This document shows, in pieces, positions 14,644 through 43,011 of a DNA stretch of 52,376 nt (within the stretch, counting starts at the first letter, position 1; the number at the start of each line of letters is the position of its first letter). The notes below the pieces were generated by a model. The model saw only the letters and a program-made list of their open reading frames with translations, was not told the origin of the DNA and did not search any database. Location: NCBI GenBank assembly GCA_019689585.1, contig JADGHG010000003.1:1-52376 (forward strand), written 5' to 3'. The position numbers and the translations under genes were made by a program. Source of the stretch: Clostridia bacterium (GTDB taxonomy: Bacteria > Bacillota > Sulfobacillia > RBS10-35 > JADGHG01).

Positions 14644-15243
14644 CTAAAGATCTGGCGCATAGTCGACTATCTCACTCGAGAGAATTTCTTTCCACCGTGC
14701 TACTTCCTTCACACGTATCTCTGCCTGCCGAATCAGATCAGCTGTCACCTTCCTTCGCGCACGGTATTTCAGAATCCCGGGCCCAAGCGCAATCGCAGTA
14801 AGCCCAAGGGCGGCCGGGTGTGACAATGAGCCAGTAGGATGGAACGCTGTTCCAACCACTGCTGCTATGCTGCAAGCAAGTATAAAAAGGCTTCGCGCCA
14901 GTGTTCGTAAGGTAACGGTGTCATCGGCAGAACCACTGCAACCGCATGGTACAGGGGTCCCTCTTCTCAAGACCATCGACGTTGCCACAACGAAACAAAT
15001 TGCAAGGGCTATTCCGAGCATCGGGCCGACCACACTTGAGCCTGCGAAAAGAATGACGAGTCCTACCAACATCTCAAACCAAGGCAATGCGAGCCCGATT
15101 GGCCGCGTGAAGCTAGCCGGCAGGATTCCGTAAGCGGACACAACTGACCGAGACGACGGATAGTCCGCCAACTTCATCCCGGCCGAACACACAAACATCG
15201 TCCCCAGCCAAGCACGGATGATCGACAAGAGGTCAATATTCAC
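14644..15243 (-). CDS. MauE/DoxX-like membrane protein
   Basis: GTG start after AGAGGTAGG; RAWLGTMFVCSAGMKLADYPSSRSVVSAYGILP and VLRRGTPVPCGCSGSADD are typical of the MauE family; 4-5 TM segments. Confidence 0.7.
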   Translation of the reverse strand: MNIDLLSIIRAWLGTMFVCSAGMKLADYPSSRSVVSAYGILPASFTRPIGLALPWFEMLVGLVILFAGSSVVGPMLGIALAICFVVATSMVLRRGTPVPCGCSGSADDTVTLRTLARSLFILACSIAAVVGTAFHPTGSLSHPAALGLTAIALGPGILKYRARRKVTADLIRQAEIRVKEVARWKEILSSEIVDYAPDL

Positions 15244-15253
15244 AACCAACGAC

Positions 15254-15868
15254 CTACCTCTTGACCCACAATTTCGTGACACGAAAGCCACCATCCGGTA
15301 ATCTCAGCCCGACTGTACCTACAGTCATGCCCGGAACAAGTGCTGTGCGCCCGCCCTGCAGAGGGATATCGCCTTCACCCACGACCTCGAGCACCGGAGA
15401 CAGCTCAACCTTAACCGGTCCTCGCCTCGTCATCAAGTTCAGGTGGTCGGAGCCGACATGCTCGATAACCCCGTCACGACGGCCGATGTTGACCCACACC
15501 CACTGACTCCGGGCGCGGAGGCTGCCGTCTGGTAACGGCGTTCCCCGCACGTCAAGCCAGTCACCGATTTGAACTACCTGGTGGTTTCGAAAGACCTCCT
15601 TCCACACCACGGTGTCGGGCTGAAATCGAACAGCTCGAACGCCTGCACCGGACTCGAGGATGACTCCGGTTTCCGTGCGGTCTACAACACGTCCTGACGC
15701 AAACCCCGGGTCTGGGCCCACAACCTGATCCACAGTGGGTCGAAGTGCAGTCCGTCGCGGTGGGTGGGTGCCGATCGCCTGTAAGACCCCTGGGTACAGA
15801 AAGTCGACTACAAGAACGAGGGCTCCCCCCAGGATCGTCAGAAACGAACGACGGCTGATAGGCTCCAT
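15254..15868 (-). CDS. Tat-signal exported protein of unknown function (DUF5666-like beta domain, tentative)
   Basis: MEPISRRSFLTILGGALVLVVDFLYPG twin-arginine signal; beta-rich repeats; SD GGAGG. Confidence 0.65.
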   Translation of the reverse strand: MEPISRRSFLTILGGALVLVVDFLYPGVLQAIGTHPPRRTALRPTVDQVVGPDPGFASGRVVDRTETGVILESGAGVRAVRFQPDTVVWKEVFRNHQVVQIGDWLDVRGTPLPDGSLRARSQWVWVNIGRRDGVIEHVGSDHLNLMTRRGPVKVELSPVLEVVGEGDIPLQGGRTALVPGMTVGTVGLRLPDGGFRVTKLWVKR

Positions 15869-15900
15869 GCCAGCGCCTCCGTGTTGGCAACCGCTCCAGT

Positions 15901-16302
15901 CTAGCAGCACAGCTGTGTAGGCTTAGTCGCAGCGTTCATATTGGTTATTCGCCCTTGGTGCAGGGGAGCAAAGACGGTAAACATAGCCTTCGTGAAATCT
16001 ACCATCGCCGTGCTACTGGGGCCGGTGTCCACCCGCACGGCGGCGACCCAGTTCACACAATCGGTGGTGAACACCATTTGGTCTCCACAACTTGGACACA
16101 ACCCGCAGGATTTCGCCTGTCCGCACTCCCATGCGAACCCGCGGTTTCCGGAGTTGCATGTGCAGCACGCCCCGACTCCACATGCGTTCCCTTCGCCACA
16201 TGGCGTTGAGCAGTCACTCCCCTGGCAACAGCACGCGTCGCAGTCGCAAGTATCCGGGTAGCAGCAGAACCACGTTGCGTCGCCGCAGCACGGCTCGCTC
16301 AT
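15901..16302 (-). CDS. Extremely Cys-rich small protein (22 Cys in 133 aa), first gene of a putative operon
   Basis: SD GAGGAGGGG 6 nt before ATG; MSEPCCGDATWFCCYPDTCDCDACCCQGSDCSTPCGEGNACGVGACCTC...; ends QLCC*. Confidence 0.72.
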   Translation of the reverse strand: MSEPCCGDATWFCCYPDTCDCDACCCQGSDCSTPCGEGNACGVGACCTCNSGNRGFAWECGQAKSCGLCPSCGDQMVFTTDCVNWVAAVRVDTGPSSTAMVDFTKAMFTVFAPLHQGRITNMNAATKPTQLCC

Positions 16303-27283: not shown

Positions 27284-27568
27284 TTGAGGCGGCTGGTGCA
27301 CGTCGCTATCGGCACGTTTGTTGCGGTGGCCCTCTGGACCGCAACGGCTGCTGCTCAGGGCGCTTCGACCGTGCTGTGCTATGATACCGGCGACTACGAG
27401 GACGTGGTTACAGCAGTGTACTGCAACGCGTGCGTGCCGCAGAGCAACCCCGACGAGATCAAGAAGGCCCGCTACGAGATCTACGTCTGTGAGGACGGCA
27501 GCCTGCTGTACCTCCTGACCAACACATGGACGGAATGCGGCTACGTAGCGCGCTGCACCCACGAGTGA
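27284..27568 (+). CDS. Small secreted 6-Cys protein
   Basis: SD GGAGGTGAT, TTG start; signal peptide MRRLVHVAIGTFVAVALWTATAAAQG; six Cys in mature part. Confidence 0.65.
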   Translation: MRRLVHVAIGTFVAVALWTATAAAQGASTVLCYDTGDYEDVVTAVYCNACVPQSNPDEIKKARYEIYVCEDGSLLYLLTNTWTECGYVARCTHE

Positions 27569-27577
27569 ACTGACGAC

Positions 27578-29941
27578 ATGCGGCGCGCCCGATCGTCGTT
27601 ACGCCTCGCACGCGGGCTCTTGGGAGGAGGTGACAGCGACCTCCCGCGCCTCCTCTCCGCCGTCGCGGGCGTGGCGGTCGTCCTTGCGATGGGCGTCATG
27701 GTGCTGGCCCTTGGGGCTCGCTTCGCTCTACCCGAGGACGTGGCCGAAACGGTGCGGGGCCTGCCGGGAAGCCTCGTCCGCGTGGGCATCGCAGAGGCAC
27801 GAACCCTTCCCAACGGAGCGTCGCTCGCCGGGGGCGTGCCCCTCTTCACCCTGGACGACTGGCAGCAACTCCGCGTGGCCGTGGGGGACGCCGGAGACGT
27901 TGCCGCCCAAGGGGCAGGTCACGGCAACTGCCCTGTTGAGCCCGGCGATCCCCCGGATCGAGTCGTCTACATGACACCCGTCACGCCCAACTACTTCGCC
28001 GTACGAGACCTGTCGCTCGCGGAGGGCCGCGTCCCGGCCATGGGCGAGGAAGGGGTCGTGGTCGGAGCCTCCGTGGACGTCCGCGTGGGCGATCGCATTC
28101 CCGACTGTGCGCTGCGGAGCAGCCGGGTCGCCCGCGAGGTCACGGTCCTGGGCCGCCTCGGCGAGACGGGGGACGCGGATCTCCTCAATCGCAGCGCATT
28201 GGAGCCGATCGATCCCTCACGGCCTCTGCCGCAGACGTACGAACAGGTCGGCTACTACCTCTGGGTCAAGCCCGCGGGGGCGGACACCCAGACCGTCCTC
28301 GACATCCTGCGTCGCAACCTGCCTGAACACCTGAGCGGCGCAGATCTCGCCTTCGTCACCTTCGGAGTGCAGCGCCTCGTCGTCGAGCACACGGGAGCCG
28401 TCACCGCGGTGGCGCTCCTTCTGTTCCCCGTCGTCATCTCGCTCATGGCGGCGCTGGTCCTGGCCGTGCTCGCCCTTTTGCGCGTCATCCGCGAGATCCC
28501 ACAGGTGGGCGTGAAGCTTGCCTTCGGCGCCTCGCCCGGCCGTCTGGCAGGCGAGTACGGCGTTCGTCAGGTGGGGCTCGTCGTCGGCGCGGTGGCCGTG
28601 GGAGCCGCGTGCGCCCTTCCGCTTCGCCCGCTCGCCGAGCGCTGGCTGGAGCAGCCGGTGCGGATCTCGTGGCCGGTCCTGGGTCTCTCCGCGGCGTGGA
28701 TGCTCGTCCTCGGGTTCGGCGCCTCCGTGCTTTCGGCCTGGTCGGGGACGCGGGTGGATCCGGCGGAGGCGGTGCGCCAGGAGCCGCTCACGTCGCCCAC
28801 CGGTGGCTGGGGCCTTCTGCGTTCGGGGTTCGCGGTGGCCTCCGCCGGCGTCGCCGTGGGCCTGGCCACGGCGCTTGTGGTGCTTGGGGTCGGGGAGGGC
28901 ACGACGAGGCAGACTGCACAGTATCTCGACCGAGTGGGCGCGCACGCCCTGGTCGTGCGACCGGCTTCGCCCGGCGCCTCGACGTGGTTCGCACCTGACG
29001 CAGTCCCGTCGGGACTCGACCGCGTGCCGGGGGTCGAGTCGGTGGAATGGACCGGGAGGGGCGTCGCCGTCGCCAGATCGGGACCGTCGGACGAGAGGCA
29101 GACCGTCACCGTCGTGGCTGCGACGGAGTCGTTCCTTCGCCAGCGCGGCGTGGACCTGGCGGAGGGTCGATATCCGCGAGCCCCGGGCGGGGAGATCGGG
29201 GAGGCAGCGGTCGGCGCCCAGCTCGCCGAACGTCTCTTCGGCACGGCGGACGCTGTCGGCTCCGCGTTCCAGCTGGGCGACAGGACGTTCCGGGTGGTCG
29301 GCGTCGTCGCGAAGCCGGGCGCGGGAGAGGTGGACTTGGGGTACCAGCGAGCGTGGAGCGTGTTCGTCGCTCCGCCCGTGGGGGCGGAGCTCGTCGAGTC
29401 GGGCATCGTGGCGCCCGAAGCGGCGGAGGCGTGGCTCGAGACGTCGGAAGGCGGCGACCTAGACAAGGTGATGGCGGCGGTAACGGCCGTCCTTCCGCAG
29501 GACTTCACGGTCGACTTCCCGTGGGGCGACCTCTCGAAGGCGGTCGACTTCCAGCGCCGCTGGACGGGAAGGCTCTTCGCGCTCGCGGGCATCATCCTGG
29601 TCCTCAGCGCTCTCGCTGCCGGAGGGGTGTTGCTCGTCTGGACCATGGCGCACACGAAGCAGATCGCGCTCCGAATGGCAGTAGGGGCGACGCCCGCGGA
29701 CGTGCGGCGGTTCGTCCTCGGGCGAAGCCTGCGCCTTTCGCTTTGCGCCGAAACCGCCGCCGCGGCGCTGGCTGTGGCGGCTGCAGCTGCCATGCGCCTC
29801 TCCGGCTACCCGGTTGCGTTCTCCTGGCAGATGCCGGTCCTAGTCGTGCTCTTCGGCGCGGCGCTTGTTCTCGGCTGCGGATGGGGGGCGGTCTCCTACG
29901 CCAGCCGCATGGACCCATCCGAGGGCCTGCGATACGAGTGA
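27578..29941 (+). CDS. MacB/FtsX-type ABC transporter permease
   Basis: Two FtsX-like TM domains (LLLFPVVISLMAALVLAVLALLRVIREIPQVGVKLAFGASPG; GVLLVWTMAHTKQIALRMAVGATPADVRRFVLG); 9 nt after the 6-Cys ORF. Confidence 0.88.
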   Translation: MRRARSSLRLARGLLGGGDSDLPRLLSAVAGVAVVLAMGVMVLALGARFALPEDVAETVRGLPGSLVRVGIAEARTLPNGASLAGGVPLFTLDDWQQLRVAVGDAGDVAAQGAGHGNCPVEPGDPPDRVVYMTPVTPNYFAVRDLSLAEGRVPAMGEEGVVVGASVDVRVGDRIPDCALRSSRVAREVTVLGRLGETGDADLLNRSALEPIDPSRPLPQTYEQVGYYLWVKPAGADTQTVLDILRRNLPEHLSGADLAFVTFGVQRLVVEHTGAVTAVALLLFPVVISLMAALVLAVLALLRVIREIPQVGVKLAFGASPGRLAGEYGVRQVGLVVGAVAVGAACALPLRPLAERWLEQPVRISWPVLGLSAAWMLVLGFGASVLSAWSGTRVDPAEAVRQEPLTSPTGGWGLLRSGFAVASAGVAVGLATALVVLGVGEGTTRQTAQYLDRVGAHALVVRPASPGASTWFAPDAVPSGLDRVPGVESVEWTGRGVAVARSGPSDERQTVTVVAATESFLRQRGVDLAEGRYPRAPGGEIGEAAVGAQLAERLFGTADAVGSAFQLGDRTFRVVGVVAKPGAGEVDLGYQRAWSVFVAPPVGAELVESGIVAPEAAEAWLETSEGGDLDKVMAAVTAVLPQDFTVDFPWGDLSKAVDFQRRWTGRLFALAGIILVLSALAAGGVLLVWTMAHTKQIALRMAVGATPADVRRFVLGRSLRLSLCAETAAAALAVAAAAAMRLSGYPVAFSWQMPVLVVLFGAALVLGCGWGAVSYASRMDPSEGLRYE

Positions 29942-30049: not shown

Positions 30050-30772
30050 ATGGTCTCGACGGAACGACAGGCAGGTGACGAGCCCCTCGTCTCCCTCCGC
30101 GGGATCGGCAAGACGTACCTCCTCGCGGGCGGGGTGCCCTTCACGGCGCTCGCCGACGTGACGCTCGAGGTCGGGCGCGGCAGCTTCACGGTCGTCGTCG
30201 GGCCGAGCGGATCCGGGAAGTCGACGCTCCTTCACATCCTGGGCGGGCTCCTCACGCCCACGACCGGCGAGTACAGGTTCGAGGGGCGGCCGGTCGCGGG
30301 CCTCTCGCCCGCCGAGCTCGCGCGCTTCCGGAACCGGTACGTGGGCTTCGTGTTCCAGCGCTTCAACCTCCTGCCCGACGCCCGCGTGTGGGAGAACGTC
30401 GCGCTCCCGCTCGTCTACCGCGGCGTGGCGCGAGGAGCTCGTCGGGCGCGGGCGCTCGAGCTCCTCGAGCGGTTCGGACTGCGCGACAAGGCCGAACAGT
30501 ACCCGGCACAGCTGAGCGCGGGCCAGGAGCAGCGCGTCGCCATCTGCCGGGCGCTGGCAGGGGATCCTCAGCTCATCCTCGCCGACGAGCCGACCGGCAA
30601 CGTCGACCGGGCGGCCGGCAAGGTCATCATGGAGGAGCTCCTGCAGGCGGCGCGTCGGGGCAAGGCGGTCGTGCTCGTCACCCACGACCTCGCGCTCGTC
30701 GAGTACGCGGATCACCTAGTCGAGATCTCCGACGGCCGGATCGTGCGGGACGAGCGCGTCGGGGTGCGGTGA
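30050..30772 (+). CDS. LolD/MacB-type ABC transporter ATP-binding protein
   Basis: VVVGPSGSGKSTLLHILGGLLTPTTGEY; AQLSAGQEQRVAICRALAGDPQLILADEPTGNVD. Confidence 0.94.
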   Translation: MVSTERQAGDEPLVSLRGIGKTYLLAGGVPFTALADVTLEVGRGSFTVVVGPSGSGKSTLLHILGGLLTPTTGEYRFEGRPVAGLSPAELARFRNRYVGFVFQRFNLLPDARVWENVALPLVYRGVARGARRARALELLERFGLRDKAEQYPAQLSAGQEQRVAICRALAGDPQLILADEPTGNVDRAAGKVIMEELLQAARRGKAVVLVTHDLALVEYADHLVEISDGRIVRDERVGVR

Positions 30773-30823: not shown

Positions 30824-31475
30824 CTACCGCTTCATGGGCCGCCACTCGCGCCGACTCGCTCCCCTCCTCGCGGACTTCGCCGGCATCCGGGCGGGAATGC
30901 GGCGCTGTACACGCCAGGCCTCCACGATCGGCTCCAGACGCTTTGTGAGCGCCGACACCGTGGACCGCGAAAGCCGGGTGCAGCACGGCTGCTGCGTCAC
31001 CCGCGCGACGTCGCGGGTCGACACGCCGTGCACGTCCATCTCCAAAAGCGCCAGCACAAACGCCTGCTCGTGCCGCTGGTAGCGCTGGAAAAGACGGGTC
31101 GAGAACCCGCCGTCCCGCGTCTGCGCCGCCCGCAACGTCAGCTCGCCGACGCGCGTGTACAGACTCCGCGGCTTGTACCCGTTGCGGTAGGTCAACCGCC
31201 GCGCCGTCCGCTCGTGCCGCTGCGCCCCGACGTATTCCGAGACCTCCGCCTTCAGCACCTCGTCGAGGATCTTGCCGAACAGCGCCCGCAGCTTCTCCGC
31301 ATCACCCGACAACAGGTCGTGCAGATCGTCCCGTCCGTGTCCCGGGTAACCTGGAACCGAGCCATCGCCTCGCCTCCCGACTGGTCTCGTTTCCAGCTCC
31401 CAGCCTGCCGAAGGCGCGGGGCGGCTCGCTCGCTTTCTGAAGAGCCCGTCCCGTTTTTACAGAACTTTTCGGACG
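30824..31475 (-). pseudogene. IS256/mutator-family transposase remnant
   Basis: MARFQVTRDTDGT then frameshift to LHDLLSGDAEKLRALFGKILDEVLKAEVSEYVGAQRHERTARRLTYRNGYKPRSLYTRVGELTL; truncated at the C-terminus; GTTCTGTAAAAA end sequence near 31475. Confidence 0.82.
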
Positions 31476-34058: not shown

Positions 34059-34231
34059 GGTGCGATGGCTTCGCCGCCGACAGCCCCGTTCCCGCCAGGG
34101 CGCGGTCCCAGCCCGGGTCCCACGCGCCGTCCGGCCATACCGCAGCCCTCTGACCGTCGACGAAACCGAGTCGACTTCAGAGTGGCCCATAACCCGTCCA
34201 CGAAGTACCATACAGATACCAAAGTAGAGAC

Positions 34232-34451
34232 ATGCGAGGTCGTATATCCCAGGACGCAGGCCAGGCCCCGCGTCCGACAGGTCTTCGGCTTCGACCACGA
34301 GTTGGTCGCTCGGATCGAGGAGGTGTCTGCCGGGCTCGACATCTTCCAGCGCGACCTGGTCGAGCGGGCCATCCGCCAATACCTCGACCGGCACGCTGGC
34401 GAAGTCGGGCACAAGCGGGGGGAGGTGGGGCGAGAAGGGCTGAGAACGTAG
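34232..34451 (+). pseudogene. Ribbon-helix-helix DNA-binding protein, start unclear (possible frameshift)
   Basis: Frame ending 34451 reads RVRQVFGFDHELVARIEEVSAGLDIFQRDLVERAIRQYLDRHAGEVGHKRGEV (RHH-like) with no ATG/GTG upstream; ATG 34232 is in another frame. Confidence 0.45.
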
Positions 34452-34474
34452 CCGTCGGGTGGGTGGCTTAGCCA

Positions 34475-34487
34475 CCTAGACTCTAGG
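34475..34487. promoter_or_regulatory. Perfect 13-nt palindrome CCTAGA-C-TCTAGG, candidate operator
   Basis: Exact dyad immediately upstream of the SD of the 34503 precursor; a second dyad GGTGGC-TTA-GCCACC lies at 34462-34476. Confidence 0.45.
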
Positions 34488-34502
34488 AAGGGAGTGCGAG
34501 GG

Positions 34503-35144
34503 ATGAGCGTGTGGCTGCGCGGAACTGCCGTACTGCTTTTGGTGGCCGCGATCGTCACCATCTCCAGTTCTGCCATTGCGGGGGCCACGAACCAGGGCCA
34601 GTGGAGGCCCGCCTCAGCGACAGAGGTCCTAGGGGTGCTCGGCGAACGGCACCTGGGGGCCGCCGGACTGCTGACCCAGGGCGCCGTGACGTACACCGCC
34701 ACGGATGGCACCCTCTCCACGTTCGTCCCCGCCGCCACGCAGACGCCGGAGTTCCTGGGCATCCTCATCGTCACGACCCCGGAGGGCCAGACCTTGGTCT
34801 ATCGGGCGTCGATGACGGTGAGTGCCCGGGGATCGACGGTCACGCTTGAGGGAACCCGCGGGGAGCCGACCGTGGTTCAGGACGTGGGGCACGTGTCCCT
34901 GCCCAAGCCGGCGAACCGAAGTGCCACCGGCGCAAGCGGTGGCGGGGTGTCCGCCGACAGTTACGTGGGTGGACTGATCTGTGGTGTAGTGTGCCCGGTC
35001 GTCGTGTGGTATACGTTAAACCCGGTAACTCTGGAGGGACAGTTAGCAGCTGGCGTCCTCTGCTACGTCATCTGCACGCCTCCCCCTGGAGGGGGACCGG
35101 TGGCACCTGGCACGGGCGGATGCACCAATGGATGCGCGAACTAG
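34503..35144 (+). CDS. Putative secreted Cys-peptide precursor (halocin C8-like architecture)
   Basis: Signal MSVWLRGTAVLLLVAAIVTISSSAIAG; ~150-aa N-terminal domain; C-terminus SYVGGLICGVVCPVVVWYTLNPVTLEGQLAAGVLCYVICTPPPGGGPVAPGTGGCTNGCAN. Confidence 0.65.
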   Translation: MSVWLRGTAVLLLVAAIVTISSSAIAGATNQGQWRPASATEVLGVLGERHLGAAGLLTQGAVTYTATDGTLSTFVPAATQTPEFLGILIVTTPEGQTLVYRASMTVSARGSTVTLEGTRGEPTVVQDVGHVSLPKPANRSATGASGGGVSADSYVGGLICGVVCPVVVWYTLNPVTLEGQLAAGVLCYVICTPPPGGGPVAPGTGGCTNGCAN

Positions 35145-35156
35145 AAGGGGTTGACG

Positions 35157-35378
35157 ATGGCACCGATACGGAGCCGCAAGGAACACCTAGAACTGCTGGG
35201 GCGGCTCTACTTCGGGTGGAGTGTGACTGAGGCCCTGGTCTTGTGGAGCCACGTGCCGCTCATCGGGAAGATCGGCCTCGTCCTCTTGGTCGGGTCCGGG
35301 TACTTCGTGGCCCGGAAATACGGTCGGATGAAGGGCTTTCTGGCCGGATTCCGTCAGGACCAGGGCAAGACTGGCTGA
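35157..35378 (+). CDS. Small membrane protein, unit 1 (candidate immunity/accessory)
   Basis: MAPIRSRKEHLELLGRLYFGWSVTEALVLWSHVPLIGKIGLVLLVGSGYFVARKYGRMKGFL; 12 nt after the precursor stop. Confidence 0.65.
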   Translation: MAPIRSRKEHLELLGRLYFGWSVTEALVLWSHVPLIGKIGLVLLVGSGYFVARKYGRMKGFLAGFRQDQGKTG

Positions 35379-35380
35379 GT

Positions 35381-35413
35381 GCCGGTGCCGCCCCGTGGCT
35401 GGGCGGCACGGGC
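35381..35413 (+). terminator. Hairpin after unit 1
   Basis: GCCGGTGCCGCCC / GGGCGGCACGGGC, 13-bp stem with one mismatch. Confidence 0.6.
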
Positions 35414-35454
35414 TACCTCGGCCGTGGTGGTGGGAGGAGGCGGCCGAACCCCGT

Positions 35455-35554
35455 AGCCGCCATAGTCATGTGCTACGTGCTTTGCGCCCCTGTCGACGGC
35501 GGCGCACCGCCAACACCGGGTACAGGCGGATGCACGAATGGATGCGCGAATTAA
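35455..35554 (+). pseudogene. Remnant of duplicated Cys-peptide precursor C-terminus
   Basis: AAIVMCYVLCAPVDGGAPPTPGTGGCTNGCAN* matches unit 1 GVLCYVICTPPPGGGPVAPGTGGCTNGCAN*; rest of the gene absent. Confidence 0.75.
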
Positions 35555-35565
35555 GGGGTTTGAAA

Positions 35566-35787
35566 ATGGTCCCCATACGGAGTTGGAAGGAGTTCCTTCA
35601 AATCCTCGCGCGGTTCTTCGCAGCGTGGAGCGTCTTGCTGGCCCTGATGTCGTGGCGCTACGTACCGCTCATCGGGAAGGTCGCCTTGGTGCTCCTGATC
35701 TGCGTCGCGTGGTTCGTCGCTCGGAAGTACGGGGGCATGAAGGGCTTCCTGGCCGAGTTCCGCGAGGACCGAGGCAAGGATGTCTGA
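35566..35787 (+). CDS. Small membrane protein, unit 2
   Basis: MVPIRSWKEFLQILARFFAAWSVLLALMSWRYVPLIGKVALVLLICVAWFVARKYGGMKGFLAEFREDRGKDV, clear paralog of unit 1. Confidence 0.7.
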   Translation: MVPIRSWKEFLQILARFFAAWSVLLALMSWRYVPLIGKVALVLLICVAWFVARKYGGMKGFLAEFREDRGKDV

Positions 35788-35789
35788 CA

Positions 35790-35983
35790 CGAGTTGAAAG
35801 GAACTGCTAGAAAGGCTAGCGCGGTACTGCTGGGGGTTCAGCCTGTGTGTGGCCTTCAGCTCATGGCACTACGTACCGCTCATTGGGAAGATCGGCCTCG
35901 TACTCCTGGTCGAGGTCGGGTGCTTCGCGGCCGGAAAGTACGGCCGGGCGAGGTGGTTCAACGAGGACCTAGGCGACGGCTGA
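35790..35983 (+). pseudogene. Small membrane protein, unit 3 (decayed)
   Basis: S*KELLERLARYCWGFSLCVAFSSWHYVPLIGKIGLVLLVEVGCFAAGKYGRARWFNEDLGDG*; start lost and the Trp of SWKE is TGA. Confidence 0.72.
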
Positions 35984-36000
35984 ATTAAGGCCGGTCGAGT

Positions 36001-36033
36001 GCCGGTGCCGCCCCGCCACAGGGCGGCACCGGC
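36001..36033 (+). terminator. Hairpin after unit 3
   Basis: GCCGGTGCCGCCC-CGCCACA-GGGCGGCACCGGC, perfect 13-bp stem, near-identical to the 35381 hairpin. Confidence 0.65.
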
Positions 36034-36046
36034 TGCCCCCCGTGCA

Positions 36047-36527
36047 TCACCGCTTGACGCGTCCGAACCGCAGCCGGGCGCCGGGCGCGAGCTCGGCCAG
36101 ACGGCCGAGGTCGGCCTCGGAGATCACAGTGCGCAGAATGCCGCCGCCCGAGTTCAGGTTCTCGATAGTCGCGCCCCTCGAGGCGCATGCGGAACTCCTC
36201 GGCCCGCCAGCCGGCGAAGCAGAGGTGGGTGTGCGCGCCGACGAGCCCCGGGGTGACGAGCCGGCCCTCGGCGTCGACGACGGTCGCGTCGGGGGTCAGC
36301 TCCACCGCCGCGAGCACCTCGGCCTCAGGGCCGGCCGCGACGACGCGGCCCCGGAAGGCCGCCACGGCGCCGCCCGGGACGACCCCTGCCTCGCCCTGGG
36401 CCCGCCCGGCGAACGGCCGGGGTGGGCCGGAAGGTGCGCCCGTCTCCGCGGCCGCGCCCGACGCGGTCGCGAGCTCGCCCGCGCCGTGGACGATGAGGTC
36501 GGCGGGGAGGCGCCGCGGCTCACCCAT
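36047..36527 (-). pseudogene. Chimeric pseudogene: hutI 5' portion joined to pxpC/kipA 3' portion
   Basis: [24 protein letters not shown]...[22 protein letters not shown] then a 2-nt deletion, then [34 protein letters not shown], the last part matching the pxpC tail [24 protein letters not shown]. Confidence 0.85.
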
Positions 36528-36587
36528 CGTGCGATGGCTTCGCCGTCGGCCGCCAGGTTCCCGCCCGGACCCGCGCCGGCCGGTCCC

Positions 36588-42348: not shown

Positions 42349-43011
42349 ATGGAGCGCCTTCTCAGCGACGAGATCCGGCGCAAGGTGGCGGAGGTCCTCG
42401 GCGATGTCGAGCGGGAGGTCGAGCTTCTGCTCGTCGCCCGGGAGGAAGACGACGAGGCCGACGTGATCGCGGAGCTCCTCGCCGAGGTGGCCGAGGCCTC
42501 GCCGCGTCTCTCGAGCCTCCGGCTCTCCCCCGAGGCGGCCCGGCGCGAGGGCCTCGTGGGTGAACCGCACCCGGCCGTGTACGTCCGCGCGAAGGGCGGC
42601 CCGGCGCCGCGCTTCCGCTTCCTCGGCGCCCCGGCGGGCTACGAGTTCGGCAGCCTCGTGGAGGACGTGCGCGACGTCGCCCGCGGTACGACCGGCCTTT
42701 CCGAGGAGACGCGCGCCTTCCTCGCGAGCCTCGCCGACCTGGCGGAGCCCGGCGTGCGCATCGAGCTCGAAGTCTACACGACGCCGACCTGCCCCTACTG
42801 CCCGCGGGCGGTTCGGCTCGCGCACCAGATGGCGATGGAGAGCGAGCGGGTGACGGCCGTCGCGATCGACGCCCTCTCGTTCCCCGAGCTCGCCGACCGC
42901 CACTCCGTCTACGCGGTGCCGAAGACGGTCATCAACGGCGTCCACTCGATCGAGGGAATGGTGCCCGAGGCGGTGCTCGTCGCGCACATCCGAGAGGCGC
43001 TCGGGGCCTAG
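42349..43011 (+). CDS. Protein disulfide oxidoreductase (PDO-like, tandem thioredoxin fold)
   Basis: [27 protein letters not shown]...[10 protein letters not shown]; ~220 aa. Confidence 0.88.

Follow-up and report, generated by a model that had tools for sequence, protein, structure and literature searches.

A tandemly duplicated cassette, inserted between housekeeping genes, that encodes a candidate bacteriocin-like precursor and a small membrane protein

Results

A predicted secreted precursor with a Cys-patterned tail

We analyzed a 52,376-nucleotide stretch of DNA from a Clostridia bacterium (contig JADGHG010000003.1 of assembly GCA_019689585.1), referred to here as the window. At the locus of interest, a putative secreted precursor, PRE1, is followed by a small membrane protein, MP1, a hairpin and further copies of these elements (Table 1). 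The original prediction had described an ORF of about 213 codons with a signal peptide, a Cys-free middle and six C-terminal Cys, followed 12 nt downstream by a 73-aa protein with two transmembrane segments and then by a hairpin, and this arrangement was borne out. The tandem copies, the threefold CxxxC pattern, the insertion and the ribbon-helix-helix (RHH)-like ORF were absent from it.

Table 1. Features of the cassette and its flanks, in window coordinates.
Feature	Position	Strand	Basis or remarks
Inserted cassette, about 1.9 kb	34122..36045	.	Duplicate alignments, GC
RHH-like frame (RVRQVFGFDHELVARIEEVSAGLDIFQRDLVERAIRQYLDRH)	34183..34451	+	phrog_3887, RHH models; possible regulator
Perfect palindrome GGTGGC-TTA-GCCACC	34462..34476	.	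Sole exact match in window
Putative secreted precursor PRE1	34503..35144	+	213 aa; downstream 33-aa paralogue under amino-acid constraint
Membrane protein MP1	35157..35378	+	73 aa, basic, two-helix; candidate immunity or helper protein
GC-rich hairpin after first unit	35381..35413	+	Folding energy, no T-run
Decayed second precursor, last 33 codons (VAAIVMCYVLCAPVDGGAPPTPGTGGCTNGCAN)	35453..35554	+	Similarity to PRE1 tail
Second membrane protein MP2	35566..35787	+	Intact, 60% identical to MP1, same ribosome-binding site
Third membrane-protein copy	35792..35983	+	Broken, TGA early in frame
Second hairpin copy	36001..36033	+	Terminates array
Cassette-free duplicate of kipA end and hutI start	36048..36587	-	hutI' 36132-36587, kipA' C-terminal 36048-36133

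PRE1 runs from an ATG preceded by a purine-rich GGAAGGGAG stretch to a stop codon at 35142-35144. In DNA this rich in GC, the length of the ORF alone is no evidence for a gene, since a 214-codon ORF has a probability of P = 0.20 in composition-matched random sequence. The product consists of an N-terminal signal segment, a middle region free of Cys (approximately residues 29-145) and a C-terminal Gly/Cys region that is hydrophobic and contains three CxxxC motifs. The export signal was judged by eye and by hydropathy, which reached 2.26 over 19 residues in the N-terminal hydrophobic segment MSVWLRGTAVLLLVAAIVTISSSAIA; no twin-arginine motif was found by direct reading of the N-terminus MSVWLRGTAVLLL, which makes the signal Sec-like and not Tat. 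The Cys at positions 160, 164, 187, 191, 207 and 211 form the motifs CGVVC, CYVIC and CTNGC, and residues 1-159 contain none. Confinement of all six to the last 54 of 213 residues has a probability of P = 2e-4 under random placement. If the tail is taken to begin ten residues ahead of the first Cys, it contains no Lys or Arg and two Asp/Glu residues, and hydropathy over 19 residues is 1.4-1.9 at residues ~149-177.

Pairs of the CxxxC type are frequent in thiol and metal chemistry. PRE1 might be a surface-anchored or redox-active secreted protein, in which the tail (about residues 156-177) would be a membrane anchor, the CxxxC pairs would serve metal, cofactor or thiol chemistry, and MP1 would be a membrane partner. 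The hydropathy of residues ~149-177 fits one membrane segment, no oxidising Dsb system was detected, and further Cys-rich secreted or membrane-associated genes occur elsewhere in the window. However, no redox domain of Pfam, NCBIfam or PHROGs matched, and the restricted distribution, the insertion, the decay of a tandem array and the constrained extreme C-terminus, all presented below, would be unusual for a housekeeping redox protein. We consider this explanation rather unlikely, if worth keeping in view.

DsbB, VKOR and Thioredoxin_4 were not detected in the genome (95% complete), so that any oxidation of the PRE1 Cys would be spontaneous or would depend on another system. Metal binding and enzymatic modification are possible alternatives to disulfides. 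In the latter case, PRE1 would be the precursor of a RiPP, whose CxxxC motifs might carry thioether bridges, for example, installed by enzymes whose genes lie elsewhere in the genome. A Gly-rich C-terminal core in which CxxxC recurs and the lack of a detected disulfide system are compatible with such a peptide, but PRE1 begins with a Sec-type signal instead of a RiPP leader, and the window genes scanned included no gene of the radical-SAM, lanthipeptide or YcaO kind; we consider a RiPP very improbable.

Several other genes of the window encode Cys-rich or thioredoxin-like proteins. A TTG-start ORF of 94 aa (27284-27568, + strand), with a signal peptide, seven Cys and no family match, lies directly 5' of a MacB/FtsX-type permease gene (27578-29941), and an ABC ATPase is encoded at 30050-30772. 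The region at 14644-16302 (- strand), a stretch of lower GC, encodes a very Cys-rich protein of 133 aa (MSEPCCGDATWFCCYPDTCDCDACCCQ...) without a family match. After it come a protein that starts with a Tat-like RRSFL and weakly matches DUF5666, and a MauE protein. Finally, a 220-aa protein encoded at 42349-43011 (+ strand) has a C-terminal Thioredoxin_3/glutaredoxin-like domain.

The small membrane protein and a possible regulator

MP1 begins 12 nt past the PRE1 stop codon and has its own AAGGGG site. It contains 11 Lys/Arg and 4 Asp/Glu residues, and helices are predicted at residues 7-31 and 35-69. The original prediction had proposed structure prediction for both proteins; models were obtained, but that of MP1 (pLDDT 64) was too weak for judging an immunity fold, and the single-sequence AlphaFold model of PRE1 (pLDDT 42) was too poor for judging a toxin fold. 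The hairpin that follows MP1 has a folding energy of -32.4 kcal/mol (z = -2.6). A scan for the sigma-70 consensus found no promoter.

The RHH-like frame, which ends just upstream of PRE1, matched the transcriptional regulator family phrog_3887 in PHROGs (E 4.4e-4) and, in Pfam, RHH_1 (E 0.12) and RHH_9 (E 0.088). The closest start codon in this frame is a GTG near 34183; lacking a clear start, the frame may be damaged. The palindrome between this frame and PRE1 is a possible operator, and the RHH-like product possibly regulates the cassette.

The signal peptide, the short conserved C-terminus and the possible regulator next door would also suit a pheromone: PRE1 would then give rise to a secreted signalling peptide that is sensed or matured through the membrane protein and the RHH-like regulator, and small membrane proteins can take part in signal maturation. 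However, no sensor kinase or receptor gene adjoins the cassette, the membrane protein has been multiplied along with the precursor, and the constrained tail, which is long, hydrophobic and contains six Cys, is unlike short linear pheromones. A signalling role thus appears quite improbable.

Tandem copies reveal amino-acid constraint

Downstream of the first hairpin, the remnant of a second precursor is 70% identical to the PRE1 tail; it retains all four of the Cys that lie in its stretch, and its final 12 residues, PGTGGCTNGCAN, are unchanged. MP2 is intact although its partner precursor has lost its 5' part. The simplest history, as read from the sequence, would begin with tandem units of precursor, membrane protein and hairpin, from which the 5' part of the second precursor and the stretch between MP2 and the third membrane-protein copy were probably lost later.

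We compared the identities between copies with those expected when unconstrained divergence was simulated with the same base changes. The precursor tails share 23 of 33 amino acids, against 15.3 +/- 1.9 expected (0 of 5000 simulations), and MP1 and MP2 share 44 of 73, against 34.9 +/- 2.7 (P = 0.001); dN/dS (NG86) was about 0.22 for the tail and 0.42 for the membrane protein. These comparisons show directly that the precursor and the membrane protein are real genes and that both products, above all the Cys-containing tail, were under selection; the divergence is summed over both branches and is no proof that PRE1 works today.

Another possible account is that the cassette is a decaying selfish or orphan element with little present function, an array in the course of being lost in which only the PRE1-MP1 unit is still intact. 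Two of the three units are broken, the RHH-like frame lacks a clear start, the adjacent hutI' and kipA' fragments (see below) are broken too, and no relatives were found. Nevertheless, PRE1, MP1 and MP2 are all intact and have ribosome-binding sites, and the pattern of divergence between the copies indicates past selection. We regard such decay as an improbable account of the locus as a whole.

The cassette was inserted between hutI and a kipA-like gene

The cassette lies between hutI and a gene for a fused KipI/KipA-type carboxyltransferase (kipA-like), with a C1-type peptidase, MarR and hutU encoded among its other neighbours. Its GC content is 61-69%, compared with 75-80% in the flanking kilobases. 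Almost directly after the carboxyltransferase stop lies a second hutI start, hutI', that is 82% identical to the first; joined to it at 36132/36133, and preceding the cassette, is kipA', which duplicates the 3' end of the carboxyltransferase gene. Both fragments are broken. One copy of the junction thus carries the cassette and the other does not, which places the insert at about 34122-36045; it is bounded by the stop of the kipA C-terminal duplicate (about 36046-36048) and, on the side upstream of hutI, by the end of the duplicate homology at 34121.

The resident hutI is 82% identical to hutI', compared with 71% to the hutI of the nearest relative, and this closeness suggests an exchange with a close lineage. 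Around four hutI loci in three other genomes of the order, no kipA-like gene was present, and hutU lay upstream in two of the genomes. The ends of the cassette showed no terminal repeats, and hence gave no evidence for transposition. The joint at 36132/36133 is probably a recombination scar, a chimeric metagenome assembly being a less likely possibility.

A fragment of a Mutator-family (IS256-type) transposase gene was also observed in the window, at 30824-31312 (- strand).

Search for relatives

No significant match to the precursor, its tail or the membrane protein was found in Pfam, NCBIfam, PHROGs or the PDB. Translated searches of plasmids and phages (for phages, with the precursor only), motif scans of viral contigs and, for both profiles, pattern scans across 85,488 GTDB species yielded no homologue, the GTDB and viral scans requiring exact short motifs that distant relatives may escape. 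Whole-genome profile searches, of higher sensitivity and over fewer genomes, found no relative of the membrane protein among 154 genomes of the class and none of the precursor among 399 genomes of the phylum. Within these collections, the orphan status of both sequences is well supported. Furthermore, no unrelated domain was found over the Cys region and no homologue without the Cys, the two outcomes that the original prediction had named as telling against it.

Scattered profile matches in 300 relatives at E <= 0.1 were rejected, those translated being unrelated, and weak matches between the membrane protein and YneF-like sequences (E 0.016-0.019), which covered only one hydrophobic segment, were discarded. 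In the Cys-free middle, a stretch of 32 residues (86-117) of PRE1 is 44% identical to FlgF encoded by a genome from the same phylum, the best match from 399 genomes with an E value of 9e-4 per genome and therefore borderline, and PRE1 has a weak match to a hook-basal body protein in NCBIfam (E 0.024). The likeness to FlgF/FlgG is limited to this stretch, the rest of PRE1 and its Cys tail being unrelated, and probably reflects a shared beta-hairpin pattern or chance.

Discussion

Of the functions considered for this locus, that of an orphan bacteriocin-like precursor with a candidate immunity protein ranks first, followed by a surface or redox protein, a decaying orphan element, a signalling precursor and a RiPP, and we put the first forward tentatively, at somewhat less than an even chance. 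The signal segment and the restriction of Cys to a hydrophobic tail that has two acidic residues and lacks Lys and Arg point to it, as do the constraint on that tail between copies, with four shared Cys and an identical end. A basic two-helix membrane protein lies directly 3' of the precursor and was duplicated together with it, and MP2 has stayed intact while its partner was truncated. Insertion at a junction of housekeeping genes, patchy distribution and lower GC also argue for this reading, and the plan is one shared with SdpC/YitM of Bacillus subtilis (PMC6818787). On the other side, no homologue with a known function was present in the collections searched, and neither the cassette nor its immediate surroundings contained a recognisable SdpA/SdpB-like, RiPP-modifying, double-glycine ABC or dedicated protease gene. 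A bacteriocin-like peptide with a small membrane protein for immunity, as put forward in the original prediction, stays the best single, if provisional, reading.

In the model that we infer, the insert would supply a peptide weapon together with protection from it. PRE1 would be exported by the Sec pathway and its signal then removed, and the C-terminal ~55-65 residues would be freed by cleavage as a small hydrophobic peptide, uncharged to acidic, whose three CxxxC motifs would close as tight loops, most simply by disulfides. The released peptide would kill close relatives by targeting their membranes. The Cys-free middle might serve as a pro-domain, either holding the peptide in a harmless state or aiding export, and the basic two-helix MP1 would confer immunity. 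Multiplication of the unit in tandem would have been followed by decay, and the extra intact MP2 would fit an orphan immunity gene.

A bolder proposal, which we hold to be possible and on balance doubtful, is that the cassette represents a new family of Sec-exported toxins with three CxxxC motifs and a two-helix immunity protein, spread in a high-GC lineage as a regulator-precursor-immunity cassette by recombination through flanking housekeeping genes, and found in no other genome of the class that was searched. If so, it would add a bacterial peptide toxin family and its antidote that current sequence models miss, and would have been caught in mid-process, with a filled site, a duplicate junction of the unfilled type and decayed copies on one contig. 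If this interpretation is wrong, the locus would still provide a clean pair of orphan secreted and membrane protein genes, once under selection and confined to one lineage among the genomes searched.

Comparison with known systems

The original prediction had considered the locus a possible bacterial relative of halocin C8 (ProC8/HalI/HalC8; TIGR04449), a haloarchaeal system that it resembles in having a long exported precursor with a putative active, Cys-containing C-terminal peptide. Membership in this family was rejected on the features tested. Neither the precursor nor its tail matched TIGR04449 at E <= 10, and the genome gave no match at E <= 1, in a search that was positive in the controls Haloferax volcanii and B. 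subtilis. The PRE1 tail has six Cys in 54 residues, whereas the C-terminal peptide of halocin C8 is larger, a Cys-rich peptide of 76 aa with ten Cys. Here the membrane protein has a separate gene and the host is bacterial, whereas immunity to halocin C8 lies in the N-terminal part of the precursor ORF. Furthermore, the PRE1 signal is Sec-like, while ProC8 is exported by the Tat pathway (PMC11509114). Failure to belong to this family does not weigh against a bacteriocin-like function. In contrast to class II bacteriocins, PRE1 is a Sec-type protein of 213 aa with no double-glycine leader, and no peptidase-containing ABC exporter is encoded beside the cassette.

In B. subtilis, SdpC and YitM are made as precursors of ~200 aa with an N-terminal signal and a hydrophobic C-terminal toxin region; the toxin region of YitM differs in sequence and has acidic residues and no basic ones, and the immunity proteins of the two systems, among them SdpI, are membrane proteins unrelated to each other (PMC6818787). 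The yit genes have been inserted along with a regulator gene, in some strains between chromosomal genes, and some strains retain only immunity genes (PMC6818787). No sequence similarity between the cassette and these systems was detected and no Pfam or NCBIfam family was matched at or near the cut-off, the neighbours of the cassette include no SdpA/SdpB-like partner genes, the three CxxxC motifs of the precursor extend to the C-terminal end, and its partner is a single two-helix protein of 73 aa. Nevertheless, the same plan is seen here: a precursor of ~200 aa with an N-terminal signal and a C-terminal hydrophobic region, which, as in YitM, has a tail without basic residues; a neighbouring membrane-protein gene, here duplicated and a candidate for immunity, with an RHH-like neighbour; and insertion between chromosomal genes, with a surplus membrane-protein gene that may be compared with the immunity-only loci. 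By analogy, SdpC/YitM of Bacillus would be the closest functional counterpart of the cassette, its plan fitting better than that of halocin C8.
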